DNA of 64,000 bases from Craspedostauros australis (taxonomy: Eukaryota; Bacillariophyta; Bacillariophyceae; Mastogloiales; Achnanthaceae): the NCBI GenBank assembly GCA_026770025.1, contig JAMXDE010000034.1, forward strand, positions 1-64,000, written 5' to 3'. This document shows, piece by piece, positions 1,801 to 63,896 of the stretch (the stretch's first letter is position 1; each line of letters begins with the position of its first letter). Both the position numbers and the translations under genes were made by a program. The notes under the pieces were generated by a model that saw only the letters and a list, made by a program, of their open reading frames with translations, did no database searches and was not told the DNA's origin.

Positions 1801-4740
1801 CTTCCTTCCTGCCCATCCTGCTGTGGTGGATCCATACCGCAGTGGTGCTGCCAACAGTGGCATTGTCATCAACGATGATAGCTGCAGCAACAGTGCCAAC
1901 AATGCCAACAACACAGGCAATTGTGGTGCCACCAACCAGACCACTGATGCTGATACTGCTGCCCCACCCCAGCAGCTCACGCCCCCTCCTCCACCTGTCC
2001 CTGAGGCAGCTGCGGCGCCAATAGCCGCTCCTGTTCCCACTGACTATGTGGAGGTCCTTCCTGCACCTGAGGGATCCGATCCTGCTCGATCCAAGGCTGC
2101 CACCACTGCCAGAGCCTCTCCGTTGCTGTGATGGGCCTGTGCCCGCTCCTGACAACGTTGTGACTCCTGGCGAGGACACAGATCTCCCTGGCTATGTCGC
2201 ACCTCCTACAGATGTCAAGCTGGATCAGGTGTACAGCAACCACGCCCACAACAATGACAATTACGGCTCCCACCTCCATGGTGGTGTTGGCGGAGATGCT
2301 GTGTGGCAGCAGTGCTTGGCTTGCATCGTCATTGCATTCTCCCCACAACGACACTTGGTCCCACATTGTTGCATTGGCCACAGATTCCTTCACCTTCTCT
2401 CTCTTTCTCTCTGGAGCTCAGGGGGGTTCGCGACCAGCTGCGGAACTTGGAGCAACCGCTGTTGCCTGCGACAGTGGCCCTCCAGATCACCCCTGGTGTA
2501 CCTGGCCGCAGCAAAGTACGGAAGCGGCTGTCGTCTCGCATGGATTTGTGGGAGACCAGCAAGTTTGCTGCGCTGGTCGAGGCCACCGAGTCACAGCTGC
2601 GCCAGCATGCCATTCCATCTGGTGGCACCCGTGACGATGCACCACATGCCCGCGCCTTCAACACACAGGTTCTCTCTGGTCGTCTGTGTGCTGCAGTTTG
2701 CACCCTCACACATCTCATGAAGGTGGTGATCCCCTCTTGCCAGCAGAAATCGACACCAAGTCTGGTCTGCCCGTGGAGGAGACACTGAGACTCAGGCATC
2801 CTGTCATGTCATACGTGATCCTGACATCAGTGGTGACAGGGCAGGAGCATTCGAGCCATATGACAGCCCTGCTCCCACCCCTGTCCCTGTCAAGATCACC
2901 AAATGAGGTGGTTGGATCAGTTGCTTCCAAACTCGCTGGGGAGGCTGGCCCAGTCAGGGCGGTCTTGATGCTGTCCATCTGGAAAACTGGTTCCTGCGGT
3001 TTTGGCAGCGGGTCCAAGCATCTCCGCAAAGAGGTTGCTGCTTGGACCAACTGGCTCTCCAACTCCCATCCTCCATGGGCTGCCTACCACGCCATGATGG
3101 CATGCCGCCTCATTGCTCTGGACAGGCGAAAGGGACATGTCAAAGATGTTCAAGACTCCGAACCTGGACGGAGGGAATCTTTTGCGTCAATTTCTACTGG
3201 AGCATCGGTGGTTTTCCAGCATGCCAAAATATGTGGTGTGGCAGGTGCTATTGCTATACTTTGGACAATCACCTTGGCTTTCATCACTTCCATCTTCAAG
3301 ACGGCAACACAAAACGCAAGCGATCTGGACGAGAGAATGTTGATCAGCTGGGGTGCCAGAAGCGTTGATCGTGCAGCATACAGCCAAGCACGCGATGGTG
3401 ACCACCTACTGATTCCTTTCAAGTGCGATTATTGCATATTTGTCAAGCTGAAGCACAGACAACCCATCACACTCAATGCTGTTGACAAACAGGTTATGGG
3501 TGCCATCTGGAGAGTCAATCTGGATGCTTTCTGGAGTCGAGCCTCCACCACCGTCAAGGCAAACGCCAGCAGAGCCAAACAGATGATTAAGGCAGCACAA
3601 GAACTCGGTCTGGAGGGACCATTCAAAGCCAAAGGTCTGCTACCCGCATACAACCATTGCAGTTATCAAGTGGCCATTCTAATGGTACTCGCGTTGCTGA
3701 AACCGGGACGATACTCCAAAACTCACATCCAGTACGACACTATCCGCAAATTGCGTGCCACCTACTCCAACCAAGTTCGCGCGTCGGCTGCCTCCACACA
3801 ACAATCATTGAGCATGGGCAATCAGAATGATAAGTACCAACGGATCGCTCATGACCCATGCGGCTCCTTCTGGTTCTCCAGGTTCAACGAGGGCTGTTGA
3901 CACCGAATGGGACAGGACTGGAGACCCAACAAAGGCTTCTCCACAGCACTCGTATTGGCAATCTTGGACATGGCACAACAACGATTCCATGAATGTGAAC
4001 ACAACGACCCCAGAACAACATTGATGGGCTGCTTTTGTGACCTGTGCTATGTTATCCTACACCATATCTCTTTGGGGTTCTGAGGCACAGATGTTGGACC
4101 CCAGGGCCACCATCAAGGAACAATCATGCCAAAAGCCAGACGACCATATCACCATTGTACTACAAGGCAAATTCAAAGGCGAACATCAGTCATACAAACA
4201 TATCATCCCTCTATCCAAGCGAACCAAATCGGGTATCAACGTCCAAGGCATCATCAACACACCCCTGAGTGTGAAGCAGAAGTTGCAACAATATCACGGT
4301 CCCGCAATTTCATTGAAACAAGGTACCCTCTACACTCTGAAAGATCTTGATGATGCACTCCATGACGTCTTGGAGGGTATATGGGAGACCAACCAAGGTT
4401 TTTTTCCCTCCTGACATCACCAATGCATCCAAGCTACGCGAAAGCTATCACTGTTTCCGATCTTTCAGGCGAGCCTCGGACACATGCGCTCTGGAGCAAA
4501 AGGTGAGCAAAAAGTGACACCAAACTGGTCAATTGTTGGGAGAAACCAGGACCAGGAGGAGGACGGAGAAACAAAACCGACATGCAATTCCACTATGCCC
4601 AATTCGATCTGCTTGTCCGACCGTTTCTACGCTACACCACCTCCATGTGACAGGCGGTACTATTGGGGGAATCAAGAAGTGCCCAAAAACAGTTTGGAAT
4701 GGGTCATCGATATCCAGTGCAAACTGGTGGACTGATTTGA
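1800..4740 (+). mobile_element. Decayed reverse-transcriptase / recombinase-like retroelement, copy A
   Basis: Several frames on the plus strand, spread over about 2.9 kb, carry pieces of one retroelement. The central piece contains the words PPWAAYHAMMACRLIALDR and RVNLDAFWSRA. I recall these from a repeated family in Thalassiosira-type diatoms that joins a reverse transcriptase-like part to a downstream region resembling a tyrosine-recombinase core-binding domain. The last part (about 4,040-4,740) fits that downstream region. The relic is a fossil with several breaks and no terminal repeats that I could define. It might be a DIRS-like or a non-LTR element. An identical relic lies in copy B. 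Confidence 0.6.
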
Positions 4741-18397: not shown

Positions 18398-21338
18398 CCT
18401 TCCTTCCTGCCCATCCTGCTGTGGTGGATCCATACCGCAGTGGTGCTGCCAACAGTGGCATTGTCATCAACGATGATAGCTGCAGCAACAGTGCCAACAA
18501 TGCCAACAACACAGGCAATTGTGGTGCCACCAACCAGACCACTGATGCTGATACTGCTGCCCCACCCCAGCAGCTCACGCCCCCTCCTCCACCTGTCCCT
18601 GAGGCAGCTGCGGCGCCAATAGCCGCTCCTGTTCCCACTGACTATGTGGAGGTCCTTCCTGCACCTGAGGGATCCGATCCTGCTCGATCCAAGGCTGCCA
18701 CCACTGCCAGAGCCTCTCCGTTGCTGTGATGGGCCTGTGCCCGCTCCTGACAACGTTGTGACTCCTGGCGAGGACACAGATCTCCCTGGCTATGTCGCAC
18801 CTCCTACAGATGTCAAGCTGGATCAGGTGTACAGCAACCACGCCCACAACAATGACAATTACGGCTCCCACCTCCATGGTGGTGTTGGCGGAGATGCTGT
18901 GTGGCAGCAGTGCTTGGCTTGCATCGTCATTGCATTCTCCCCACAACGACACTTGGTCCCACATTGTTGCATTGGCCACAGATTCCTTCACCTTCTCTCT
19001 CTTTCTCTCTGGAGCTCAGGGGGGTTCGCGACCAGCTGCGGAACTTGGAGCAACCGCTGTTGCCTGCGACAGTGGCCCTCCAGATCACCCCTGGTGTACC
19101 TGGCCGCAGCAAAGTACGGAAGCGGCTGTCGTCTCGCATGGATTTGTGGGAGACCAGCAAGTTTGCTGCGCTGGTCGAGGCCACCGAGTCACAGCTGCGC
19201 CAGCATGCCATTCCATCTGGTGGCACCCGTGACGATGCACCACATGCCCGCGCCTTCAACACACAGGTTCTCTCTGGTCGTCTGTGTGCTGCAGTTTGCA
19301 CCCTCACACATCTCATGAAGGTGGTGATCCCCTCTTGCCAGCAGAAATCGACACCAAGTCTGGTCTGCCCGTGGAGGAGACACTGAGACTCAGGCATCCT
19401 GTCATGTCATACGTGATCCTGACATCAGTGGTGACAGGGCAGGAGCATTCGAGCCATATGACAGCCCTGCTCCCACCCCTGTCCCTGTCAAGATCACCAA
19501 ATGAGGTGGTTGGATCAGTTGCTTCCAAACTCGCTGGGGAGGCTGGCCCAGTCAGGGCGGTCTTGATGCTGTCCATCTGGAAAACTGGTTCCTGCGGTTT
19601 TGGCAGCGGGTCCAAGCATCTCCGCAAAGAGGTTGCTGCTTGGACCAACTGGCTCTCCAACTCCCATCCTCCATGGGCTGCCTACCACGCCATGATGGCA
19701 TGCCGCCTCATTGCTCTGGACAGGCGAAAGGGACATGTCAAAGATGTTCAAGACTCCGAACCTGGACGGAGGGAATCTTTTGCGTCAATTTCTACTGGAG
19801 CATCGGTGGTTTTCCAGCATGCCAAAATATGTGGTGTGGCAGGTGCTATTGCTATACTTTGGACAATCACCTTGGCTTTCATCACTTCCATCTTCAAGAC
19901 GGCAACACAAAACGCAAGCGATCTGGACGAGAGAATGTTGATCAGCTGGGGTGCCAGAAGCGTTGATCGTGCAGCATACAGCCAAGCACGCGATGGTGAC
20001 CACCTACTGATTCCTTTCAAGTGCGATTATTGCATATTTGTCAAGCTGAAGCACAGACAACCCATCACACTCAATGCTGTTGACAAACAGGTTATGGGTG
20101 CCATCTGGAGAGTCAATCTGGATGCTTTCTGGAGTCGAGCCTCCACCACCGTCAAGGCAAACGCCAGCAGAGCCAAACAGATGATTAAGGCAGCACAAGA
20201 ACTCGGTCTGGAGGGACCATTCAAAGCCAAAGGTCTGCTACCCGCATACAACCATTGCAGTTATCAAGTGGCCATTCTAATGGTACTCGCGTTGCTGAAA
20301 CCGGGACGATACTCCAAAACTCACATCCAGTACGACACTATCCGCAAATTGCGTGCCACCTACTCCAACCAAGTTCGCGCGTCGGCTGCCTCCACACAAC
20401 AATCATTGAGCATGGGCAATCAGAATGATAAGTACCAACGGATCGCTCATGACCCATGCGGCTCCTTCTGGTTCTCCAGGTTCAACGAGGGCTGTTGACA
20501 CCGAATGGGACAGGACTGGAGACCCAACAAAGGCTTCTCCACAGCACTCGTATTGGCAATCTTGGACATGGCACAACAACGATTCCATGAATGTGAACAC
20601 AACGACCCCAGAACAACATTGATGGGCTGCTTTTGTGACCTGTGCTATGTTATCCTACACCATATCTCTTTGGGGTTCTGAGGCACAGATGTTGGACCCC
20701 AGGGCCACCATCAAGGAACAATCATGCCAAAAGCCAGACGACCATATCACCATTGTACTACAAGGCAAATTCAAAGGCGAACATCAGTCATACAAACATA
20801 TCATCCCTCTATCCAAGCGAACCAAATCGGGTATCAACGTCCAAGGCATCATCAACACACCCCTGAGTGTGAAGCAGAAGTTGCAACAATATCACGGTCC
20901 CGCAATTTCATTGAAACAAGGTACCCTCTACACTCTGAAAGATCTTGATGATGCACTCCATGACGTCTTGGAGGGTATATGGGAGACCAACCAAGGTTTT
21001 TTTCCCTCCTGACATCACCAATGCATCCAAGCTACGCGAAAGCTATCACTGTTTCCGATCTTTCAGGCGAGCCTCGGACACATGCGCTCTGGAGCAAAAG
21101 GTGAGCAAAAAGTGACACCAAACTGGTCAATTGTTGGGAGAAACCAGGACCAGGAGGAGGACGGAGAAACAAAACCGACATGCAATTCCACTATGCCCAA
21201 TTCGATCTGCTTGTCCAACCGTTTCTATGCTACACCGCTGCCATATGGCAGGCGGTACTATTGGGGGAATCAAGAAGTGCCCAAAAACAGTTTGGAATGG
21301 GTCATCGATATCCAGTGCAAACTGGTGGACTGATTTGA
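18398..21338 (+). mobile_element. Decayed reverse-transcriptase / recombinase-like retroelement, copy B
   Basis: This is the duplicate of the relic at about 1,800-4,740. It has the same parts and the same state of decay, so it decayed before the duplication. One window of 32 bp near its 3' end (21,217-21,248) differs from copy A at seven positions while the rest of the relic matches. Confidence 0.6.
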
Positions 21339-33236: not shown

Positions 33237-36200
33237 CGTTTATAAACGATAGATTAGGGCGAGCCCGCGAATCGTATCGTGCGAGGAAGACGAACATCAT
33301 TCAAGAGCAGCAGGCTGAATGAGCGAGGAAGAGGAATTGAAAGACATCCCTCTGTCCAATCCGACTATCAAGAGAGAAGAAGGTGCGAGTGAGACTCCAC
33401 CACGACAAGAGAAGGAAGCAGCTGCGGCTACTGTCCTATCAGGCGCATACGCAAGCGCGATCGACAAGACCGAAGAAGAACGGTCTGCAAGACTACATCG
33501 TAAGGAGAAGAGGATTCTCAAGGCGATCAAGCAAGAGGAGACTGGTGTGACGGAGAGCATTCGCACAGCCAAACAGAGTGGGAAAAGTGAGACACCACCA
33601 GGAGGAGAATTTGTGAGCAAATCAGTCCTCGCGAAACAACAAGCGCAAAAACGAAGAATCGGGAACACAGAAACCGACGGAAATCAAGGGCGCGAGCGCA
33701 CTAACGACTAAACAACGAACCAACATGGCGACATCAGCCAACGTGAACAAGCGACGCATTAAGGCGCCAATGTTCAGCGGTGAACAAGAAGACTACAGCG
33801 CATGGGAGTCCCAAGCAAAGGCATACGCTCGTGCACAGAAGACGAGAGACGTGATGTTGGGCAAGACCAAGGTGCCAACAATGAGCGAGATCGCGGCAGC
33901 CGCCGATGAAGACAAGGAAGCGATAGAGGAGATCTACGAGCTGGGATGCGACTGCTTCAGCGATCTGATCCTCATGATGGATGCAGAGAAAGGAAAAGGC
34001 AAGCAGGCCATCCAGTACATCAACCAATGCATCTCCGATGACTACCCCGAAGGAGACGCACACGGAGCGTGGAACGTTCTCGCGGAGAAGTTCCGACCAT
34101 CCGACGCGGTAACGAAGATCAAACTCAAGCGTCAATTCAACAACGAAAAGATGAAAAGAGACACGGACCCCGACATCTACATCACACAACTCGAAAGTCT
34201 ACGATCGCGTCTCCACGATGTCAAGTATGAGATCACGGACGAAGAAATGATCATCCAGATTCTCAGCACGGTGAGCGTGGAATACAAAACCCACGTCGTG
34301 AACCTCCAACACCAACTCACGTTCAATCCGGAGCTGGTTACCATCAACACGATCAGAGGAGTACTCCGCACTGCATATGCCACGCACAGAGGAGGCAAGG
34401 CATACGTCGACGACTTCCAAGACAGCAACACGAAGAGCAACGACACCGGCTTCACAAGCACCGGTAACTTCAAGGGTACTTGCCACAACTGTGGTGTGTA
34501 TGGCCATAGATCCGCCGATTGCCCAGAACGCAAGAAATCGAACAATAAGAAAAACAACAACAACAACAACAACAAGATGAACGGAAAGCGCAACAAGGGA
34601 AGCGGCTTCAAGGGCAAGTGCAACTACTGCGGCATCTTCGGACACCGCGAGGCGGAGTGCCGAAAGAAGAAGTTCAACGAGAAGAAGGCCGACGAGCAGG
34701 CCAACACAGCAACGCAAGGACACGACAAGAGCGGACACGAGATGGTACTCTCGGCAAAGGACATGCCGCTCTGCATGTTGGTGTCCGACGACTACATCGA
34801 AGACTCCTTCTTCGATAACTTCGAATACGTCGGGAGTGACGACGAAGTGCAGGGTGATGAGATCATCCCGGAGTGGCTCAGCGAAGAGCCAATCATCCAC
34901 GAGGTGGATCCAAGACGCGAAGCGAGCTACGAATGCTGCTTCAACGCGCACGACCTGATCGGTTCATACGGCGACGAAGCTGAGATGGACAACGAGGCCA
35001 ACGATAGTGACATCGAAGAGGCCATGAGTGATGACGACGACGACGCCGACGAGGACGGCGCAGATGAAGACGACGAGGCGGACCGCGGCGCGGCGCCTCC
35101 TCCTCCAGCGGCGGGGAACAACAGATCGGGCATCTTCGACGAGGATGACAGCGACGAATCGGTGGACGGCAATCATCCAGACGACAGCTTCAATCCAAAC
35201 GAGCGTGTCGTATACCCAGGGAATATCGACTTCCCACCAATCGAAGATCCCAACAGGTCCAACTACCTCCACCGTCATGACACCGTCCCATATGCAACAG
35301 CAACAGCATTGGTAATCCAGAAGCAACTTATCTTCGATGCCGTAATGGAAGCAGGAACAAACCTCTTCCCAGGGCATGTACAAGGAGTGCTCAGACTGAT
35401 ATGGGTGAACATGATGGGATCGATCCTATCCGAGAACTTCAGATCGATCGAAGAGATTCTCGCCAATTCGGTTGTGATCAATCGCATACTGGAAGCAGCT
35501 GAGACAGAGACGATCCCAGAGACGGATCTTCATTACATCCTTGGAGGATGTATGCGCGTACTCTTACGCGAACGACCACGCGTCCACCCGTACGATCCAG
35601 CCACAGGATCACATCGAAACAGCACCATTCCATCGGACTATGCGCAACTACCCGACGACATGGATGACGGAGACCATCATCATCCATACAACGAAGATGG
35701 AGTCCACGAAGACGACGACGACGGCAGCTTCAACGACGAGATAGCTGCGGCAGCCGTGGAGCAGCTCCACGAGCTCAGTACCAGATACAAAGACAAGGTC
35801 AACAAGGACACCTGGCTCGCCGACAGTGGAGCTTCGTGTCACATCGTCAATTCAGACGCCGCTCTCTTCAACGTGCGGCACATCAAGTCATTCGTCCAAG
35901 TGGGAGACAGCACAAAGCTGGACTCTCCCAAGATGGGATCTATTCGCTTGAAGGTCAAGCAACGAGACAACACTGGCCACATCATCCGGCTCGATGACGT
36001 GAAGTACACACCGAAAATGGCGGTGAACCTTTTCTCCACGAACAAGACTCTGTACAACGGTTACCAACTTGGTAGCAACGGCATTCTGATGGACATCATC
36101 AACGGATCCGGAATGAAGATCGTGTTCGATCGAGTCTTCCCCACATCCAACGGATTCATCACGGGAGTGCAGATGCATCCCATCATGCCAACAGACGACG

Positions 36201-39200
36201 ACAAGGCTTGCACAGCCATCGTCAAGAATCCATCCAAGGAGATCAGCGCGGTGAACCTGCACCGAATGCTCGGCCACGCGCCACTCGAGACCATGAAGCG
36301 GACGGCCGCTCAATACGGATGGAAAATCATCGGCGAGATGCCAGTGTGTCGCGACTGCGCGGTCGCGAACGCAAGAGTGAAGAATATTCCGAAGGCAACC
36401 ATTCCAAGAGCCACTCGCCGCGGCGAACGGTTCTTCATTGACATTAGTTACACTAAACACATAAGCTTCGGAGATAAACGCTACTGGACCCTGATCATTG
36501 ACGACTGCACGGATCACTGCTGGAGTTTCTTTCTCAAGAACAAAAGTGATCAACCAGGATACATCAAACGATTCGTCCAGACGATCAAGTCACAGACTGG
36601 TGACCAACAGATCATCTTCCGAGGTGACAACAGCGGAGAGAACAAATCCACGGAGGATGTTCTCATCGATGCAGGACTCAACGTGAAATTCGAATACACG
36701 GCATCGAACACGCCGCAACAGAACGGCAGAGTGGAACGCAAGTTCGCGTACCTCTACACCAAGATCCGCTCCATGCTCAACGGAGCACAGCTCGACGAAG
36801 AGTATAGGCATGGCCTGTGGGCAGCAGCTGCTAGCACTGCCACCGCCATCGCCAACATCACTGTAGCGAAGAACCAGAAGGAGTCACCACATCGACAATT
36901 CTTCGGCAACGATCCACCATATGCGGATGCACTCCGCACGTTTGGAGAGGTGGGTGTTGTGAAGACTACCTACGGCGGGATTACTGCCAAGCTCAAGAAC
37001 AGAGGAGAAGAGATGGTGTTCATCGGATATGCACACCAACATGCATCAGGGGTCTACAACATGTATAGACCATCAACCAAGTCACTCATCTGTTCACGGG
37101 ACATCAAGTGGCTCAACCAATCATACGGACAGTTCCGTGGCTGGGCACCAGCACCGAACATATCCAACGAGACAGGAACAACGGACGCAGATGGCTTCAC
37201 AACCATCGGACGGAAGGGAGCAACGCCAAGGACGGCAACGCGTCAAGCATCGAAAGCAAGGAAAGTATCCTTTGCTGACAGTAACATGTACTATATCCTA
37301 TCAGACAGCGATGATGAGGATAATGAGGACGATGGAAGAGCAACTCCATCTGTCCGTAACGACGAGGAAGATCGGAGCGAATCGAATCACGAGAATGACG
37401 AGATCATACCATCCGGCGACGAAACCGACGATGACACAGGCGTTACTCCTCCGAACACACCAGCGAGGTCTACACATGGCACACCATCCAAACCTCCACC
37501 GAGCAAGCCAAACAAGCGTGACATAGCTAGAAAGGAGAGGATCCGACGTCACGAAGCACGAGGCAGGAAGGGAGAAGTTAATCCCAAGCCAACTACAGGG
37601 AAGAGTATTTCCAGAGCTCTGCGCGAGCTCGCAGACTTCAACGAATGAGGTCGAAAGGAAGAAGGCTATGAGAGCAATCCATCATCCAATGAGGCGAGTG
37701 ACGAACTCAGCGACGAGATGATAGACGATTCCAACAACGAAACTACAGATGACGAAGAAATCGAAAACAAAGATGAAGAGGTCGAGATCACTCACCATAG
37801 TACAACTGGATTATATGGAATGAATGCAATCATTACCGAATCACCAGCGATCGACATCGGACTGTCGATGCAGGACGAGAACAAGGAACCAGAGAAGCAC
37901 ATCGAACCTACAACGTTCGACGGAGCCTTCAATCACCCAGATCCTATCCACCGGAAGGGATATCGAGCAGCCATCAAGAAGGAGTTCGACTCCATGGATA
38001 CACGCAAGGTGTATAGCAAGATCAAACGAGACGCCATCCCACGCGGCCACAGATGCTGCAAGTGCAAATGGGTCTTCAAGCTGAAACGTGACGGCACACA
38101 TCGAGCGCGGCTCGTTGCATGTGGCTATTCACAAATCGCAGGAGTGGACTTCCAAGAGCATTACTCACCTGTTATCCATGACGTGACCTATCGGGTCATG
38201 ATGGTGATCATGCTGATCAAGAAGATGGACTGCGCACTCGTCAATGTCGTAACGGCATTCCTACATGGAGACCTTGACGAGGAGATCTACATGAACTGTC
38301 CCAACAGGATAGATCATCAACCAGACGAAGCCCTGACCCTACACAAGCCAATCTACGGACTTGTACAGAGCGCCAGGCAATGGTTCAAGATGTTGGTATC
38401 GACCCTCAAGAATATCAACTTCGAACAGAGCGCAGCAGACCCGTGCCTGTTCTACAGGAAGACGAACGAAGGAAGCATGATCGTGGCCATCTACGTGGAC
38501 GATTGCTTCTGCTGTGGAGACTCCAAGGCACTGGAGACATTCCTGAAGGACATCCAAGGCAGCAAATTCAAGGTGACAATCGAGTGCGGACTCGGAGACT
38601 ACCTCAGCTGTAACATCGAACTGAACCATGACAAGACTAGAGCGACATTGCGTCAGCCACATCTCATCCGACACCTCATCGAAGAGTTCGGAACCAAGGT
38701 TGAGAAGATGCAACGCTATGGGACACCGGGAACCCCGGGTCAAATCATCGTACGACCATCCGAAGATAACGGACTACAGAAGGTCGGACCGGAAGAACAT
38801 GCCGAATACCGCCGAGGCGTCGGTATGCTACTCTTCCTCATCAAGCACTCGCGACCAGATATCGCGAACCCTGTGAGGGAACTCTCCAAGGTATTGATTG
38901 GGCCCACCAAGGCCGCAATGAAGGAGATGTATCGGATCATCAAGTATGTGATCGATACAAAGGACTATGGATTGAAGATCCATCCAGCACGTCCAGACGA
39001 CGACGGCTGGGACATGGAGCTCTTCTGCGACAGCGAATATGCAGGAGACAAGAACACAAGAATCAGTGTAGGGGGATTCATCCTATATCTGTGCAAGGTA
39101 CCAATCCTTTGGCGATCCAAGGCACAGAAGGCCGTCACACTCAGCTCATCCGAAGCAGAATACGTTGCCCTTTCCGAAGCGGCAAAGGAAATCTTCTTCG

Positions 39201-39510
39201 TTGTACAGCTACTCGAAAGTGTGGGCGTCCCAGTGAAGACACCGATCAAGGTCCGTGTGGACAACATCGGAGCGATCTTCATTGCCAAGAACCCATCAAC
39301 ATCCCAACGATCGCGGCACATCGACGTGCGCCATCACTACGTGAGGAACATGGTAATCAACAAAACCATCGAAATCATTTTTGTAAAATCCGAACAGAAC
39401 ACAAGTGACGGATTCACCAAGAACATCAAGGCCGACTTACAACGCGAACACGAGAAGTCGTACCTTGACACATCGAGAACATTCGAATGACCGAATGCAC
39501 ACAGGAAGGG

Positions 39511-41022: not shown

Positions 41023-41542
41023 TGTTGAAATGTCCGGGTGCTGTAGACTTGTTGGTAAAAGTAGACTGTTTCTGTTGAGGGTTGGTAACCTTTTCTCTGT
41101 CAGTTTTATGAGCTATTCTATTTCCGATTCTGCTCTCTCTCTCTCTGCTGCTCTGTTCATCGTGATCTCGTGTTGTACATCAGCCACTCTGCTGATCTTA
41201 TCTTGTGTATCCATGTTGCTTCCGGTTATGGAGCAATCCCATTCGTACTCGGAACCATTGGCGCATTCATCTGTGATTCCATCTGGCTCACAGATTGCAA
41301 TGTTGATGTTCCGAATCTGAACACATAAGGACACACATGGGGAGTCCTCCAATGTCAAGGTGTTTGCAAGTGTCATGTTCAATCTTGCATTCTGCACACT
41401 GGGGTAAAGTATTGAGACCACTACATTCGGTCACAGTTTCGGTCGTGGTACAGACACACGATTCATCTGACCTCCGTGAGTTTTCAGTCTCGATCCGAGT
41501 CCCGCCTTCGTCTGGTCGGTGACGTCATGCCAAATCTCGACA
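41023..41542 (-). repeat. 3' LTR of the young copia element
   Basis: 520 bp, alike to the 5' LTR except for two bases in a CT run, and flanked outside by the target duplication CAATTA. Confidence 0.93.
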
Positions 41543-44500
41543 TCCTCCCTCTGTACCGCGTCGAACAAGTGGCGTGCGTTATCATACACTTCCTCCACAA
41601 TGTCCTCCCAATATACGTACCCGTACACCGTACCGTGTCTGATGTTGTTCCCGTGATATGTCTGCAGTTTCTCTGTGACATTCTTCGTGAGGATATCGCT
41701 TGCGTTGCTCTCTGACCGAACGAATCTCACTGTGATCTTTTGGTCTTGGTAGAGTTCTCGCACAAAGTGATAGCGAACGTCGATGTGTTTCGTCCTCTGG
41801 CTGACTTGCTGATTCTTCACAAGGTAAATCGCCCCCGTGTTATCCTCAAGTATGATGCCTGGTGTTGTGATGTGGAGTATCTCCTCCATGAGCATTTGGA
41901 TGAACTTGACTTCCTGTGCTCCAATGCTGAGAGAGACATACTCTGCTTCGGTGCTTGACAGAGTGGTTGCTTGTTGCGTTTTGGAGATCCAGCTGACGAT
42001 GCTGCCTCCAATGGTGTGGATTCCTCCGCTGACACTTCGGCGTGTATCCTTGTCTGTGGCGTAGTTGCTGTCCACCATGGATAACACCCGTAGTTCCTTT
42101 GGTTTCCGGTAGGTGAGCTTGATGTCATCACCGAGGTAAAGAAGATACCCAACGAAGCGCTCCAATTCCTTCCATTGTTGCTCTCCTGGGTTCGAGAAGT
42201 GTTTGGTGAGCTCTCGAGCTGCGTTTGCTCCTTCTGGTAGTAGCTTCGTCACAAGATACATGATCTGTCCCACAATCTTCCGGTACATGTGGTGATGGAT
42301 GGGTTCCCCTTCATGTTTCATCATGGTGACTCCTGGTGTACCTGGTGTGTTGTACTTCTTCGCTGGTCTACCGCTGTGTCTCTCGAATGTTGAGGTGATC
42401 TTCTGCACAAGGTGATTCATTCTTGCCTCGATGTACTCCTGTCCATTCTCGTCACGATGGAACTCGTACATGATTCCAAGATGCTTTTTGAGCTTCCCTT
42501 CGTCAGTGAATTGGAAATGCTTTCCGACTTCTGCCTTGAACCAGTTGACCTCGGATTGTTCACCGATCAGCATGGTGTCATCCACGAAGCACATGACGAT
42601 GAGTGTTGTCTCGCCATTGACCCGCTTGTAGAAAACGCATGGGTCCGCCTTGGATTGGGTGAGTCCGGCGTTGACCATCATGTCATGGTAGGTCTTGAAC
42701 CACTTGATGGCTGCGTCGACATTGCCATACATCGACTTGAGGAGCATGAAGACATTGTCTGTTCTGTCTTGCTTGGTGACAAAGCCCAGTTCATGTAGTC
42801 CCTCAGGTATCTCGATGAAGGTTGGTCGGTCCATGGTCCCTTCAAGGAATGCCGCCTTGACATCAATCATCTCGATTGTCCAGTCCTCCTGGAACAGGTA
42901 GATGTTGAGTCCAAGCCGTATGGATGCATCAGTTGCCACTGGTGCGAAGCTCTCCTCGAAGTCCACTCCTGGTACTTGGTCAAAGCCCTTGTTGCAACAC
43001 CTGCTCTTGTATTTGATGGAGCCGTCTGAGAGTTGCTTCTTCACAAAGACCCATTTGGTTCGCATGATCTTGTTGACGACCTTGTTTGCGACCTTGCGTG
43101 GAACCTTCTTCCACACCTTCCGAGACAAGAAGTTCATGACCTCTTCGGCCATGGATGGTGCCCATTGTTCTCGGTCTGGTCCAAATAGAGCCTGTCGCAC
43201 GGTGGTAGGAGTGTCGTCTTCCTGTGTAGAGAATACGAAGTGCACCTCCTCATCTTGGTCCTCCCCAGTTGGTGCTTGGTGGACCACGATCTGTCGATCC
43301 ATCGTTGCCCTTGGGTGATCAGGAGTTGGTGAGTTGAGTTGCTGCTCCACCGAATCCACTTTGTCCGTGCCACGCATTGCTTCGCGCTGCTGCACTGCCT
43401 GAAGCATCTTGCGAGCTGCTGGATGGTGTTGAGCCAAGGTAGCGGCCTTGCCTGGTTTGGTATTGGCAAATCGCTCGAACCGGGTTCGGTATGGGTTGCC
43501 TGACGGTGGAGTGCCAGACCCGCTTTGTGGGGTGTCATTCCTCCCCACTGCAACGTCGGCATCCGTCATTGCCGTTGCTTGACTTGGCCGTGTGACGGTC
43601 ACTGGGTCCTCCCTGCCCGGATTCCCATCTCCATCAACACTTGGAGTGCCTGTTGGACGTTGGATGTCGTCCGCTTCATCATCCTCCTCCTCCTCAAAGA
43701 CTTGCATGCCCTGTTTTGGATGGATTCGCTCCCAGTCCAGCCATTGCACATCGCGAGATAGCTTGATCATCTTCGTTGCCGGATTGAAGAAGCGGTAGGT
43801 ATCAGCCGTATGATGAGGTGCATACCCGACCATCACCATCTTCCTGGCTCTGTGGCGAAACTTGCCCTTGATCAGTTCCCGATCCGCGACCATGCCAATC
43901 CTGCCAAATTGGACGAGGTGAGGTACCAGCTTGGATGGTTTGCCAGTCCACTTCTGAAAGGATGAGACGTCGTCGGCGTTGGTGCTGGTGATGTTCGTGA
44001 GGATGTTGGCCACGGTGTAGGCCTCAGTCCAGAGTTTCGTCCGAGCCTCTGTGGTGAACTTTGCAGCTGTGACCAGCGTTCTGGCCTTCTCGGTCAACAG
44101 TGCAATGCGTCGCTCCACGACTCCATTCATCTGCGGTGTGGACGGGGCTGTCAGCTCAAGTGTGACTCCAGTGCGTTGACTCCACTTCTCCAATGGCGCC
44201 ACGTTCTCTCCGGCATTGTCAGCACGAATGTACTTCAGTTGGCCTCCTGCACGTTGGATGTCGAGTGAGACTTGCTCCACATGCAAAGACATCTCAGTCT
44301 TGTGTGAGCTGTAGTATACCCAGCTGTATCGGGTACAGTCATCGACCATCACGTATGCATACCGATTGCCTGCGATCCCAGGTGAAAAGGGTCCAGTGGT
44401 ATCGACGAAGATTCTCTCCCCTTTGACAACCGATCGAGTTGCTGTGGACTTAGGCACGTTCTTCTGCTTGCCTTTCATCAACCCACATGCGACGCATGCC

Positions 44501-46335
44501 TTCCACTCTCCTGTCAACTTGATGTTGAACTGCTGTGCAGTCTTCTCAAGGAGACGGCGGCCGATGTGTCCGAACTTGTCATGGGCTTCGTTGATGTCCA
44601 CGTGTTTGGATCGGACTGGGGTGACGTCGTTTGGTGTGTTCGGTGGGTCATTGGTAGGAACGTCAGCCGGTGGTACCGCGTTGGGGTTTCTCGATGGATC
44701 ATCGGTGGGAACACCTCTGGGTGGTACCATGTTGGGTGCATCGGTGGGAACATCATGTTCAGTGTTCATGGTGGTATCAACCTCCTTCGACATGGTAGTC
44801 GCTGGGTTGGTAGTGGTCATTCCTTCCTGGTGGTATCGAGCTCGTGCCGTAGTGATCAGCTGGGCACAATGTGCTTGGTCCAAGTCAGGGTTGAGGTAGT
44901 ACATGCCATCCTCGGCAGTGGTACACTTGAAGGCTGTCTTGTCTGATGCCTTGTGAGTGACAATTGCGACGTCGTCATCGAACTCCACCTTGTATCCCCC
45001 TTGCTTCAACTTCTTGATGCTGATGAGGTTCTTGGTGAACTGCGGTGCCTTGACCACACGGATGCGGATTGGGTTGCCAGTCTCGGCATCAACCATATCC
45101 ACGAATCCTTCGCTTTGGGCCACGACGCATTCTCCATTCCCAACTCTGATCTTGTGGGAGCTTGGCTTCTCATCGATGAGTGGGGTGTCGGATGCACAAA
45201 TGTTCAGCGTAGACCCGCTGTCCAAAAGCCACTTGCGATCGGTAGGATCAGGATCTGCCTGACAGACAAAATCCGTCGGATCCTTTCCATTGTTGCCATC
45301 ATCACGGATATCCTCCGCCATGAGGACGTATGCGGTAAGTCCTGTATCATTGTCCTTCTGTGGGCACTTGTTCGCGTAGTGTCCCATCTGACCGCATCGG
45401 AAGCACTTGACATGGCTCTTGTCTTTGCCACCTCCGTTGTTGTTGTTGGTATTGTTGTTGGTGTTGGTGTTGGTGTTGTCTCCGCGGTCCTCATGAACAG
45501 TCCCCTTCTTCTGGTCACTGGCATGGCTGCGGCACACTGCCTTGGTATGTCCCTGCTTTCCGCAGTAACGGGAGAACACCTTGGTCTTCTTGGTGTGGTT
45601 CGTGTAGAACGCCTTCTCCGTGTCTCCTTTCTTGCTGCCGTAGAGATCAGTCCAGCGGTCATGAAGCTCATCCATTAGATCGTCGAGTCCCATGGTAGAG
45701 TCACGGCGAGCGTTACGCTTGATAGCTTCGTACGCGTCTGGGATCATAGCGAGGATCATGGCCTTAAGTTCAGCCATTGGCTTCGCCTTCTTCATGGCAC
45801 GGAGTTTCTTGTTCACGATGAGGATGTTGTTGATGACGTCCTCCGGGTCTTCCTTCTTGGTCATGGTACACGCCTTGTTCATCTCCTCGAGCACACGAAC
45901 GTATGCATCGTCGGAATCCGGCTCGTACTTCTTGCACAAAGCCTTCCAGCCGAGGTGAGCGTTGTGGCGATGCATGTCAGGTTCGTAGTCAGCTGATCCG
46001 TTGAGGTCCAGGATGATGAATGCCTTGTTGGTACAGGCGACGGTGAGGTAGTTGCGTGCTGCGTTGTTCATCTTGACCTCCTTCAGTTGACCTTCTTCGA
46101 GCTTGGTAGTCTCGATGGCGCTGTGAGACATGTCCGTCTCTAAGGCTTCTGCCCATCCCCTGTTGTGGGCGACCGACATCACCTTGCTCTTCCACTCATA
46201 CCAGGCTTCGGTCTTCTCTCCTGAGAACTCGAAGTACTTGGTGGAATGCTCTTTGATGGTTGTTTCTTCACTCATGGTAGATGGTTGGCTTTGGGGTTGT
46301 TGTTTGGTAGGTGTTGGATAACGTGGTAGTTTCAT
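41431..46335 (-). CDS. Gag-pol polyprotein of the young copia element (1,634 aa)
   Basis: A single frame begins about 35 bp inside the 5' LTR boundary and stops inside the 3' LTR, overlapping it by about 110 bp. The N-terminal 260 residues look like a copia gag domain. A CCHC zinc knuckle (CFRCGQMGHYANKC) lies near residue 320, and the aspartic protease signature LLDSGS near 370. The pre-integrase and integrase core follow at about 590-830, reverse transcriptase at about 1,080-1,330 with a VDD core, and RNase H at about 1,430-1,570 (TLSSTEAEYVSLS). A single gag-pol frame is usual for copia. Such polyproteins are processed by the element protease inside virus-like particles. The family call is secure. 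Confidence 0.93.
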   Translation of the reverse strand: MKLPRYPTPTKQQPQSQPSTMSEETTIKEHSTKYFEFSGEKTEAWYEWKSKVMSVAHNRGWAEALETDMSHSAIETTKLEEGQLKEVKMNNAARNYLTVACTNKAFIILDLNGSADYEPDMHRHNAHLGWKALCKKYEPDSDDAYVRVLEEMNKACTMTKKEDPEDVINNILIVNKKLRAMKKAKPMAELKAMILAMIPDAYEAIKRNARRDSTMGLDDLMDELHDRWTDLYGSKKGDTEKAFYTNHTKKTKVFSRYCGKQGHTKAVCRSHASDQKKGTVHEDRGDNTNTNTNNNTNNNNGGGKDKSHVKCFRCGQMGHYANKCPQKDNDTGLTAYVLMAEDIRDDGNNGKDPTDFVCQADPDPTDRKWLLDSGSTLNICASDTPLIDEKPSSHKIRVGNGECVVAQSEGFVDMVDAETGNPIRIRVVKAPQFTKNLISIKKLKQGGYKVEFDDDVAIVTHKASDKTAFKCTTAEDGMYYLNPDLDQAHCAQLITTARARYHQEGMTTTNPATTMSKEVDTTMNTEHDVPTDAPNMVPPRGVPTDDPSRNPNAVPPADVPTNDPPNTPNDVTPVRSKHVDINEAHDKFGHIGRRLLEKTAQQFNIKLTGEWKACVACGLMKGKQKNVPKSTATRSVVKGERIFVDTTGPFSPGIAGNRYAYVMVDDCTRYSWVYYSSHKTEMSLHVEQVSLDIQRAGGQLKYIRADNAGENVAPLEKWSQRTGVTLELTAPSTPQMNGVVERRIALLTEKARTLVTAAKFTTEARTKLWTEAYTVANILTNITSTNADDVSSFQKWTGKPSKLVPHLVQFGRIGMVADRELIKGKFRHRARKMVMVGYAPHHTADTYRFFNPATKMIKLSRDVQWLDWERIHPKQGMQVFEEEEDDEADDIQRPTGTPSVDGDGNPGREDPVTVTRPSQATAMTDADVAVGRNDTPQSGSGTPPSGNPYRTRFERFANTKPGKAATLAQHHPAARKMLQAVQQREAMRGTDKVDSVEQQLNSPTPDHPRATMDRQIVVHQAPTGEDQDEEVHFVFSTQEDDTPTTVRQALFGPDREQWAPSMAEEVMNFLSRKVWKKVPRKVANKVVNKIMRTKWVFVKKQLSDGSIKYKSRCCNKGFDQVPGVDFEESFAPVATDASIRLGLNIYLFQEDWTIEMIDVKAAFLEGTMDRPTFIEIPEGLHELGFVTKQDRTDNVFMLLKSMYGNVDAAIKWFKTYHDMMVNAGLTQSKADPCVFYKRVNGETTLIVMCFVDDTMLIGEQSEVNWFKAEVGKHFQFTDEGKLKKHLGIMYEFHRDENGQEYIEARMNHLVQKITSTFERHSGRPAKKYNTPGTPGVTMMKHEGEPIHHHMYRKIVGQIMYLVTKLLPEGANAARELTKHFSNPGEQQWKELERFVGYLLYLGDDIKLTYRKPKELRVLSMVDSNYATDKDTRRSVSGGIHTIGGSIVSWISKTQQATTLSSTEAEYVSLSIGAQEVKFIQMLMEEILHITTPGIILEDNTGAIYLVKNQQVSQRTKHIDVRYHFVRELYQDQKITVRFVRSESNASDILTKNVTEKLQTYHGNNIRHGTVYGYVYWEDIVEEVYDNARHLFDAVQREDVEIWHDVTDQTKAGLGSRLKTHGGQMNRVSVPRPKL

Positions 46336-61589: not shown

Positions 61590-63136
61590 TCTCTCCAGAA
61601 CAGCGTGTGCGTCTGCAACGACTGTGTTGTTGAGGACACCAGAAAACGAATGGCGAAGCGTGCACCATGCCACGTTGCGGAGTACTCATTGCGGTCCCCA
61701 CAATACTCTACTGCTCCTGCTCCGTATTTTTCTTTCGAATGGTATCTATCCATGAGATCCTTACCTATGGATACTTATGCAGCACAACTCAAGGATTGCT
61801 TCCATCCGCACAAGGAATCCAGACTCATCTTGCAGCTACCAATGAGCTTCCTTTCGCAATCCCTGAGAGAGTCTGACAAGTCGAAAATGGGTGAAACAGA
61901 AGACCGGCTCAATGCAGGATCAATGGGGCTTGTCACCCTCCCGAATCCACAGTCGGCAATGATTCCGGAACGCGAGGATGAGATGAACGAGACTGCGGAT
62001 TGGTGACGTAAAGAGGGTTTTCCGAGAGGACAAAAATGGTCAACGTTCTGCAACCGCCGTGCATAGTCAACGAAGCGATGCAACTGCTCTGCATCTAGAT
62101 CATGTTGGGTGGGCAGAGATTGATAGACACAGAAGCACTGTCGGTTGCGGTCCCATCTGCATTCGTGGTGCTGTCTACCCAGCCTGTGAGCTGCGCCATC
62201 GCTACACCCGTGGCTGTTCAGAAAGAGGCAACAATATTGAGACGTACACAGTTCGCCAAGTCGATAGGTACACACCCCAGAGATTCAGCCATCAAGCACA
62301 CAGTCAGCCCGCACATCAATACAACGAGCGAACGCCGTAGCCCAACACGAGTACTCTTCAAAGACTGAGTTTCCACTATCCAGCATTCAGCATCCAGCAT
62401 TCAGCATCCAACAAGCCGATGATTCAAATCACGGTGCTGAAAGTGGCAGCTAGATCCGCGACTCCATCCATGGCTGCCGGCGCCCCCACTGTGGTGGAGA
62501 CAAGACACACTCTCGAATTGCACACGTTCTCCACCATCGCCGGCGAAATCCTCCCCGCCACGACGACAGCGAATACGGGCCCCATGCCAGGATCGAGCGT
62601 TTCGACTCTACCTCTGCTTTCCTCGCAGCGACTGTCACCCGCCTCCAAATTCATCTGTTTGGTGCCTGTCGCACCATGACTGGCCTCACCTTCCCATTTG
62701 TGTCAACTTCAACAGCTCAAAGCCAACAGCAACGATGGCAGTCAGGGCAGTCTGCAGCTGACTTTTTGGAAATGCTTCGCCTATGCACGAATAAAAAGCA
62801 TCGAGATAGCTAGAGGGCGTGACAAAGGCAAGCACAATCTTGCGGTGGACTTGTACATACAAGCATGCGGAGTGGAGCAATAGATCGTGAGGCGAGAAAC
62901 AAAGCAGGGGAGTCCGTTTTGTGGTGTGTACAATAGAGCAGAATATCACAGCGAAGAAGTGCAATTAGAACAATAAGCACATAGAGAGTAGAGCAGAGCC
63001 CGAGTTTGCGTTGGAACAAGTAGTCGTATGCACAAGTGCGGTATCATGATGAGATCAGACTGGTGCGCATAGAATGACGAGCGAGAGGGGAAGGCGCCCT
63101 TTGGGTGCTTGCGTGCATTTCTGGAGCAAAAAGAAA
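61590..63136. other. Host spacer with weak open frames, no gene supported
   Basis: Frames of 60-166 codons overlap on both strands. The longest are 133 codons on plus at 61,605-62,006 and 166 codons on minus at 61,775-62,275. A minus frame near 62,218-62,400 contains a hydrophobic run that could be a signal peptide. None has a recognisable domain. Short direct repeats of CAGCATTCAGCATC lie near 62,380-62,410. Confidence 0.35.
63126..63136 (-). terminator. Pol III T-tract after the permuted tRNA
   Basis: TTTCTTTTTGC follows the 5' half. Its TTTGC can pair with GCAAA in the leader (63,225-63,221), which could hold the two precursor ends together. Confidence 0.6.
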
Positions 63137-63214
63137 CTGCAATCGAACGCTCTACCACTGAGCTATATTGACTTGGGCAGTCAACAACGTGAGTCGAACA
63201 CGTGACCATTCGAA
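63137..63214 (-). tRNA. tRNA-Cys(GCA): Circularly permuted tRNA-Cys (GCA) gene
   Basis: On the minus strand the 3' half (63,214-63,179) comes first, then six bases GCCCAA, then the 5' half (63,172-63,137). Joined as a circle-derived tRNA, every stem pairs: acceptor GTCAATA/TGTTGAC (one G-U), D stem GCTC/GAGC, anticodon stem TTCGA/TCGAA and T stem ACGTG/CACGT. Conserved features are present: T8, A14, GG in the D loop, T33, a 5-base variable loop ending in C48, and a TTCGACT T loop. The anticodon is GCA and base 73 is T, the usual discriminator of tRNA-Cys. TTTCTTTTT directly after the 5' half fits a Pol III terminator. In known permuted genes the precursor is cut and ligated at the anticodon-loop ends and then opened by RNase P and RNase Z. 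Here the split falls near positions 37/38. Confidence 0.92.
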
Positions 63215-63823
63215 TGGTGCTTTGCGTGTGATACTACGGATAAAATTGACGTTTAAATACTCTCAACTCAACGGAAGAACGCACAAATTGTTTCGAATCA
63301 TCCCAGACCTTCATCCATCGGAAATACAGACTCTGTGGAACACGGTTAGATCAAACAGACTTGACCAGAGAATAGTAGGAATCCATAATATTCTATGATT
63401 TCACATTGTTCTCTGTAGAGAGCATGTGGCTGCTTAATTTTCTCGACTGCTTCCTCACCACGTATGGTATTATCGTCAAGTTCCAATGGCGTGGTCCGTG
63501 CCGGAGACATCTCTGCACGAGGATAGCCGGCACCCTGCAATGCTTCCGAAAGTTGCTTTGCAGACGCCGGCGCACGCCAAGCAAAGGCATCAAACAAACA
63601 ACCCCCCAGAAACTTGAGAGGAAGGTCCATCAATGGAGTGCAACCTTCTGTGGAGGCGAGGTGGTTGCGGATGTGAGACTAACCAGGGGGCGCACGATAC
63701 GCGTTTTGGTAACACTCACGAGAACAGCCAGTTCTGCGTGGCACAGAAGCAACGAGAAAGGCCTCGAGAGAAAACAAGGAAAAATAAATTATGAACTTAA
63801 GTTCTGATAATTCCGCAACAACA
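63215..63823. other. Spacer between the two tRNA genes
   Basis: A 95-codon minus frame at 63,346-63,633 has plausible composition but no recognised domain. Nothing else is seen. The AAAAATAAATTATG just before the tRNA-Lys could act as a TATA-like element. Confidence 0.4.
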
Positions 63824-63896
63824 GCCTAATTAGCTCAGTCGGCAGAGCGCACGACTCTTAATCGTGTGGTCGAGGGTTCGATCCCCTCATTGGGTG
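63824..63896 (+). tRNA. tRNA-Lys(CUU): tRNA-Lys (CTT anticodon)
   Basis: The 73 nt gene folds as a normal cloverleaf: acceptor GCCTAAT/ATTGGGT, D stem GCTC/GAGC, anticodon stem CACGA/TCGTG with loop CTCTTAA, and T stem GAGGG/CCCTC with loop TTCGATC. The discriminator is G and there is no intron. The internal A box (TAGCTCAGTCGG) and B box (GGTTCGATCCC) are both present in the usual order. TTTT at 63,905-63,908 can terminate Pol III. It decodes AAG. Confidence 0.97.

Follow-up and report, generated by a model that had tools for sequence, protein, structure and literature searches.

Permuted tRNA genes, whose two halves are encoded in reversed order, have been described from a small number of hosts. 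In the part available to us, PMC3978253 tabulates 34 such genes from six algae and one archaeon, and a permuted tRNA-Cys(GCA) is present in three of its four prasinophytes. Further permuted tRNA genes are described in the available text on Auxenochlorella (PMC12636532) and, for tRNA-Ser, on the nucleomorph of Amorphochlora (PMC4494063), and the excerpted text of PMC4033280 gives the same host range. Our searches covered largely open-access literature and, among the matches listed, returned no report of a permuted tRNA gene from a diatom or other stramenopile. The first-pass annotation of the locus described here had likewise placed these genes in red and green algae, a nucleomorph and an archaeon, with none known from diatoms, which agrees with the literature searched as far as the accessible parts of these papers extend.

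The DNA analysed here, hereafter the window, is a stretch of 64,000 nucleotides corresponding to C32:1-64000 of an assembly (G000) of 74.8 Mb in 90 contigs. On contig C90 of the same assembly, PsbV is closest to PDB entries 8iwh, 6jlu, 6j3y and 7vd5, which we take to be diatom photosystem II. Copia-type elements and a PT-repeat protein are also present in the window, and with the PsbV match they make a diatom host likely. Two retrotransposon coding regions of copia type lie face to face at 33725-39490 (+) and 41431-46335 (-). Pfam domains at 33725-37645 are of gag and pol type, and those at 41434-46335 are gag, integrase and reverse transcriptase; the frame at 37718-39490 was assigned to the copia-type region by eye. 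Elsewhere in the window, two 404-codon open frames (2686-3900 and 19284-20498) that are 16.6 kb apart and identical in DNA represent a recent duplication or repeat.

On the minus strand, positions 63214-63137 of the window read as a tRNA 3' half, six bases and a 5' half, matching the reversed halves and the six-base gap between discriminator and G1 that had been claimed from the first reading (Table 1). The range given at that time, 63137-63225, contains the gene itself, and also takes in 11 leader bases beyond 63214. When rejoined, the halves form a 72-nt tRNA-Cys(GCA) with discriminator U73 and 21 of 21 stem pairs (20 Watson-Crick and one G-U), made up of acceptor 7/7 (including the G-U pair), D 4/4, anticodon 5/5 and T 5/5. 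The D, anticodon and T loops are AGUGGUA, UUGCAGU (with U33, GCA, G37 and U38) and UUCGACU, and the conserved tRNA positions U8, G18G19, U33, UUCGA and U73 are present. The complete cloverleaf bears out the earlier description of four paired stems with conserved positions in place, and the anticodon GCA, discriminator U73 and 37/38 junction also noted at that stage are confirmed, the junction being that of a type II permutation. The stretch UAUAGCUCAGUGGUAGAGC is, we believe, the same as in human tRNA-Cys. U38 is uncommon in tRNA-Cys and counts against this reading.

Table 1. Features of the permuted tRNA-Cys(GCA) gene and its flanks, in window positions.
Feature	Position	Strand	Remark
TATA-like TATTTAAA, probable external promoter, preceding the 3' half by ~45 bases	63252..63259	-	A+T peak at -50 to -26 in ordinary nuclear tRNA genes
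Leader end GCACCA; GCA able to pair with U33-G34-C35 beside the 3' cut site	63215..63220	-	Possible relaxed bulge-helix-bulge, 3/4 central pairs in this copy
tRNA-Cys 3' half, U38-U73, encoded first	63179..63214	-	36/36 positions identical across the three genomic copies
Linker GCCCAA, separating U73 (discriminator) from G1, without T run	63173..63178	-	0/6 positions invariant over the three copies
tRNA-Cys 5' half, G1-G37, anticodon GCA, encoded second	63137..63172	-	35/36 positions invariant in the three copies
Probable RNA polymerase III terminator (trailer TTTCTTTTT) immediately following G37	63128..63136	-	TCTTTTT invariant in the three copies

Searching the assembly with a 141-base region as query revealed two further permuted copies (C2a and C2b) at C2:3367358-3367464 (-) and C2:3371625-3371731 (+), 4.2 kb apart. 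When the rejoined tRNA was used as the query, six half matches were returned, all at the three permuted loci, and no match in the assembly ran across the normal 37/38 junction. Alignment of the three copies showed that 71 of 72 tRNA positions are identical, compared to 0 of 6 linker positions (Fisher p 2.7e-8), the linkers being GCCCAA in the window and CCACGG and CTCTAG in the C2 copies. The sole difference within the tRNA is A5 to G in C2b, which keeps the pairing with U68 as a G-U pair. Between C32 and C2 the flanks lose similarity within ~30 bases. The two C2 copies have ~70-100 bases in common downstream, indicating that they arose partly by one duplication and are not fully independent. 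As a separate observation on genome organization, nuclear tRNA genes of like kind often occur in inverted pairs 0.6-10 kb apart, including the permuted pair on C2; examples are C2:3367358/3371625, C3:1870335/1871073, C4:2062488-2063857, C5:2158867/2160247 and C20:744649/755004.

The comparison of the copies bears directly on whether the locus is alive, as an ordinary tRNA-Cys could have been duplicated and broken to leave functionless reversed halves behind. The blindness of ordinary tRNA scanners (ARAGORN and Rfam) to the gene would fit a dead rearranged copy of this kind, whereas equal halves around unequal linkers cannot result from recent duplication and can result from selection, pointing to selection on the tRNA. 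A dead copy is also at odds with the 21 cloverleaf pairs that remain intact in each of the three copies, with the lack of detected outer-half remnants, and with the fact that no ordinary gene was found that could cover the essential function (see below). We consider it highly unlikely that the halves are such debris and favor a working permuted gene.

Programs for ordinary tRNA genes reported only a tRNA-Lys at 63824 in the window (ARAGORN, and the Rfam tRNA model at its gathering score) and missed the permuted gene. We constructed a permuted covariance model by rearranging 11 ordinary nuclear tRNAs of the same genome, none of them Cys, into permuted order. In a search of 110 kb, this model gave the window gene 67.5 bits (E 2.1e-18), while the best match in the same run apart from the three Cys genes had 44.8 bits and several broken pairs, and spanned the neighboring mitochondrial tRNA-Met and tRNA-Val. 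Across 76 sources, comprising the window and 75 loci of its own genome that are mostly nuclear tRNA loci, the three Cys genes scored 67.1-67.5 bits and the next best match 31.7 bits. A strict permuted scanner found the window gene once over both window strands and gave 0 matches in six shuffled windows. Run over the own-genome loci L001-L106 (557 kb, with both strands and overlapping loci counted), the scanner found the three Cys genes only.

High scores from the permuted model were also obtained in viral contigs, where at least 120 loci matched in permuted order. The 80 listed loci that were used contained 96 matches to the model at E <=1e-8, with scores of up to 60 bits, and among the 55 of these matches that were checked, 46 spanned two ordinary tRNAs, 3 spanned one tRNA and 6 spanned none. 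Since the model scores high on adjacent ordinary tRNAs in the mitochondrion (44.8 bits) as well as in viral contigs, it is not proof taken alone, and the window locus could in principle consist of two adjacent ordinary tRNA genes with halves that pair by chance. What sets the Cys genes apart from such tRNA-pair matches is that they have no detectable outer halves. Within 400 bases on either side of the three loci no outer half was detectable, as 43 or more of 200 shuffles equalled the best alignments, and a T run lies where the outer 3' half would start. ARAGORN found no ordinary tRNA across the three loci. The lack of both outer halves and ARAGORN tRNAs shows that these loci are not tandem genes, so the sequence already refutes the chance pairing of neighbors, which we regard as having practically no probability, and leaves the single permuted gene as our reading.

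No eukaryotic relative was found among the 80 viral loci listed, which contain tRNA arrays and Y RNA-like elements, and the viral contigs had 0 exact matches to the Cys 5'-half motif, a motif compatible with both gene orders. The six checked matches without an underlying ordinary tRNA (L121:3858-3940, L121:4674-4748, L120:2821-2908, L111:224-323, L167:4774-4861 and L166:10145-10217) have a layout of T arm, acceptor stem with a short closing loop (TTCG in one) and D arm, and on visual inspection the normal anticodon loop is replaced by an outer stem. The element in L167 scored 33 bits against Rfam YrlA, below the cut-off, and a similar element at L163:10283-10384 lies inside an apparent tRNA-Val call. 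These six viral elements look like Y RNA-type tRNA mimics and perhaps belong to a subgroup absent from Rfam.

YrlA, a bacterial Y RNA (Rfam RF02553), is also the best Rfam family for the three Cys copies, at low scores of 32.1, 33.7 and 30.2 bits, and shares with them the permuted order of T arm, acceptor stem and D arm. The copies could by this token encode a tRNA-mimicking regulatory RNA that is never processed to a working tRNA. A superposition of bacterial Y RNA on tRNA that involves a circular permutation is described in the available part of PMC11472068, which makes the likeness to YrlA real but general. The scores of 30.2-33.7 bits amount to less than half of the family's gathering score of 69, compared to 67 bits from the permuted tRNA model, and part of the lower stem is missing from the alignments of the window copy and C2b, while in C2a this stem is filled imperfectly. 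It is the lower stem region of YrlA that binds Ro. To our knowledge, YrlA is not converted into tRNA. The Cys genes have kept a complete anticodon arm with GCA and U33 as well as U73, and no other cytosolic tRNA-Cys was found, which together favor a real tRNA and make a regulatory mimic extremely unlikely.

The search for an ordinary nuclear tRNA-Cys covered the assembly with several motifs and found none. This check had been proposed with the first-pass annotation, and in place of ordinary tRNA-Cys(GCA) genes in the nuclear contigs it turned up the two additional permuted copies. The motif TATAGCTCAGTGGTAGAGC-N7-TGCA with <=3 mismatches occurs at five places, three of them the permuted genes and the other two being copies of a mitochondrial tRNA-Asn. 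A looser D-arm motif that includes the anticodon (<=2 mismatches) gave ten places, with the three permuted genes at 0 mismatches and the remainder made up of two tRNA-Arg, two mitochondrial tRNA-Asn and matches at C45:448240, C10:1811757 and C42:292055. The C45 and C10 matches also have GCA after the D arm. All three were rejected as tRNA-Cys, as ARAGORN and Rfam found no tRNA there and the permuted model gave at most 17.5 bits (C42); the C42 match looks protein-coding. A longer-loop D-arm motif with <=3 mismatches matched 79 places compared to 99 for its reversed control, showing that most three-mismatch matches arise by chance, and ARAGORN called no Cys among all nuclear matches with 0-2 mismatches and three of those with 3 mismatches. 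A serine-type motif matched 33 places, and the 20 examined consisted of 12 tRNA-Ser and 8 places without a tRNA. A human tRNA-Cys DNA query had no match, but it also missed the three known 5' halves and is therefore uninformative. The Rfam tRNA search of the genome scored 63 of 1610 candidates. From ARAGORN calls we collected 63 ordinary nuclear tRNA genes with 20 anticodons; the isotypes without a member in this ARAGORN-ordinary set are Asp, Glu, Gln, His, Leu, Pro, Val and initiator Met.

The mitochondrion has an ordinary tRNA-Cys of its own at L063:5558-5629. Contigs C83 (79,752 bases) and C89 were recognized as mitochondrial by eye from their ORFs and have many tRNAs in common, and on C83 an apparent group II intron reverse transcriptase frame adjoins cox1.

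For two diatoms, presumably Phaeodactylum and Thalassiosira, the accessible part of PMC4494062 gives three cysteinyl-tRNA synthetase loci, predicted to serve the cytosol, mitochondrion and plastid, and the inclusion of a cytosolic enzyme means that a cytosolic tRNA-Cys is needed. Judged from the sequence, the permuted genes are probably the only source of cytosolic tRNA-Cys in the present genome. With all three copies permuted and no ordinary nuclear copy found, an RNA that is circularized and cut again is probably needed to read cysteine codons.

In ordinary nuclear tRNA genes of this genome, A+T makes up 0.66-0.74 of the bases at -50 to -26, compared to 0.49-0.61 elsewhere. Of the set of 63 genes, 41 have CAA in the 15 bases before the gene and 59 have TTTT in the 25 bases that follow it. 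Two of the three permuted copies have an upstream A+T stretch like that of ordinary genes (8/8 at -45 in the window copy and at -39 in C2b), the exception being C2a, where the signal is weaker and densest, at 7/8, at -72. Among the permuted copies, only that of the window has CAA within its final 15 leader bases (1/3). In all three copies TCTTTTT starts within 3 bases after the 5' half, and the linkers are without a T run. This layout is consistent with a model in which RNA polymerase III would be recruited by the upstream TATA-like element and would stop at the T run behind the 5' half.

The resulting linear precursor is predicted to fold like a tRNA, with the six-base linker joining the acceptor strands and the anticodon loop open, and from their pairing potential its ends could form a relaxed bulge-helix-bulge at 37/38. 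This motif, which is described for green algal permuted tRNAs in the available part of PMC3978253, was tested as an anticodon stem, a 3-nt bulge and a 4-bp central helix. In all three copies, pairing with U33-G34-C35 is possible for the leader GCA that adjoins the 3' half, which leaves a three-base bulge, and the central helix has 4/4 pairs (one G-U) in both C2 copies and 3/4 pairs in the window copy. A tRNA splicing endonuclease would then trim both ends, and a ligase would join G37 to U38 to close a circle, from which RNase P and tRNase Z may excise the linker before CCA is added. The same route has been proposed for red and green algae, where intermediates were detected, according to the accessible text of PMC3978253.

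The splicing pathway that permuted tRNAs require appears to be in use in this genome, as introns are found at the same anticodon-loop site (37/38) of tRNA-Tyr (3/3 genes seen, 19-20 bases; L067, L074, L077) and of elongator tRNA-Met (4/4 genes seen, 16 bases; L078, L081 and L082 among the loci). Two tRNA_int_endo loci were identified, one over the Pfam cut-off (44 bits) that has a weak PDB match to an archaeal splicing endonuclease (E 0.0012), and one under it (21-25 bits) that has no PDB match. The RtcB ligase was not found in the genome in a search with positive controls in 9 of 14 cases, and a search for the PF09511 ligase family had no match in either the genome or the controls. Diatoms are said to have Trl1-type ligases in the part of PMC4090602 available to us.

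Taken together, the window very likely holds a functional nuclear type II permuted tRNA-Cys(GCA) gene, one of three and probably of the sole kind of cytosolic tRNA-Cys gene in this alga. Counting against this reading are the 3/4 central pairs of the window copy, the failure to find RtcB, and the departures of the permuted copies from the ordinary upstream pattern (the A+T stretch of C2a and the scarcity of CAA). The gene seems to be a known kind in a new lineage. Permuted tRNA genes are thereby extended to an alga with a diatom-resembling plastid, and the three copies carry internal evidence of selection. One practical consequence is that tRNA lists from ordinary scanners may make tRNA-Cys appear lost when it is not. 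Should an ordinary tRNA-Cys indeed be absent, circularization would be essential for translation, and the action of splicing endonuclease, ligase and RNase P on a circle would become directly testable.

The permuted genes of Cyanidioschyzon merolae resemble those described here in having the 3' half first, a TATA-like element upstream in most, a T run and a bulge-helix-bulge at the ends (Soma 2007, via the available part of PMC3978253). They differ in numbering 11 genes, with junctions of four types and introns in unusual positions, whereas here one permuted isotype was found and the introns seen are at the ordinary site. The tRNA-Ser of the Bigelowiella natans nucleomorph is also type II, and its 5-bp linkers come near the six bases found here, although the permuted tRNA-Ser genes of B. 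natans and Amorphochlora are of another isotype and reside in a nucleomorph rather than a nuclear genome (available parts of PMC3978253 and PMC4494063).

The type II tRNA-Cys(GCA) genes of the prasinophytes Ostreococcus lucimarinus, O. tauri and Micromonas pusilla have the amino acid, the anticodon, the 37/38 junction and the absence of an intron in common with the genes described here (Maruyama 2010, via PMC3978253). On the tabulated features compared, their linkers are 26, 38 and 12 bp, in contrast to 6 here, and their hosts are green algae, in contrast to a diatom-like alga with three copies. We think it fairly likely that all cytosolic cysteine codons in this stramenopile lineage depend on a tRNA that arises solely via a circular RNA, and that the lineage has lost the ordinary gene while the permuted one became fixed, was duplicated and has been maintained by selection, either in parallel to the prasinophyte permuted tRNA-Cys or by descent from it. 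The occurrence of permuted tRNA-Cys in this alga as well as in three of the four prasinophytes listed in the accessible part of PMC3978253 raises the question of common descent versus repeated choice of the same tRNA.
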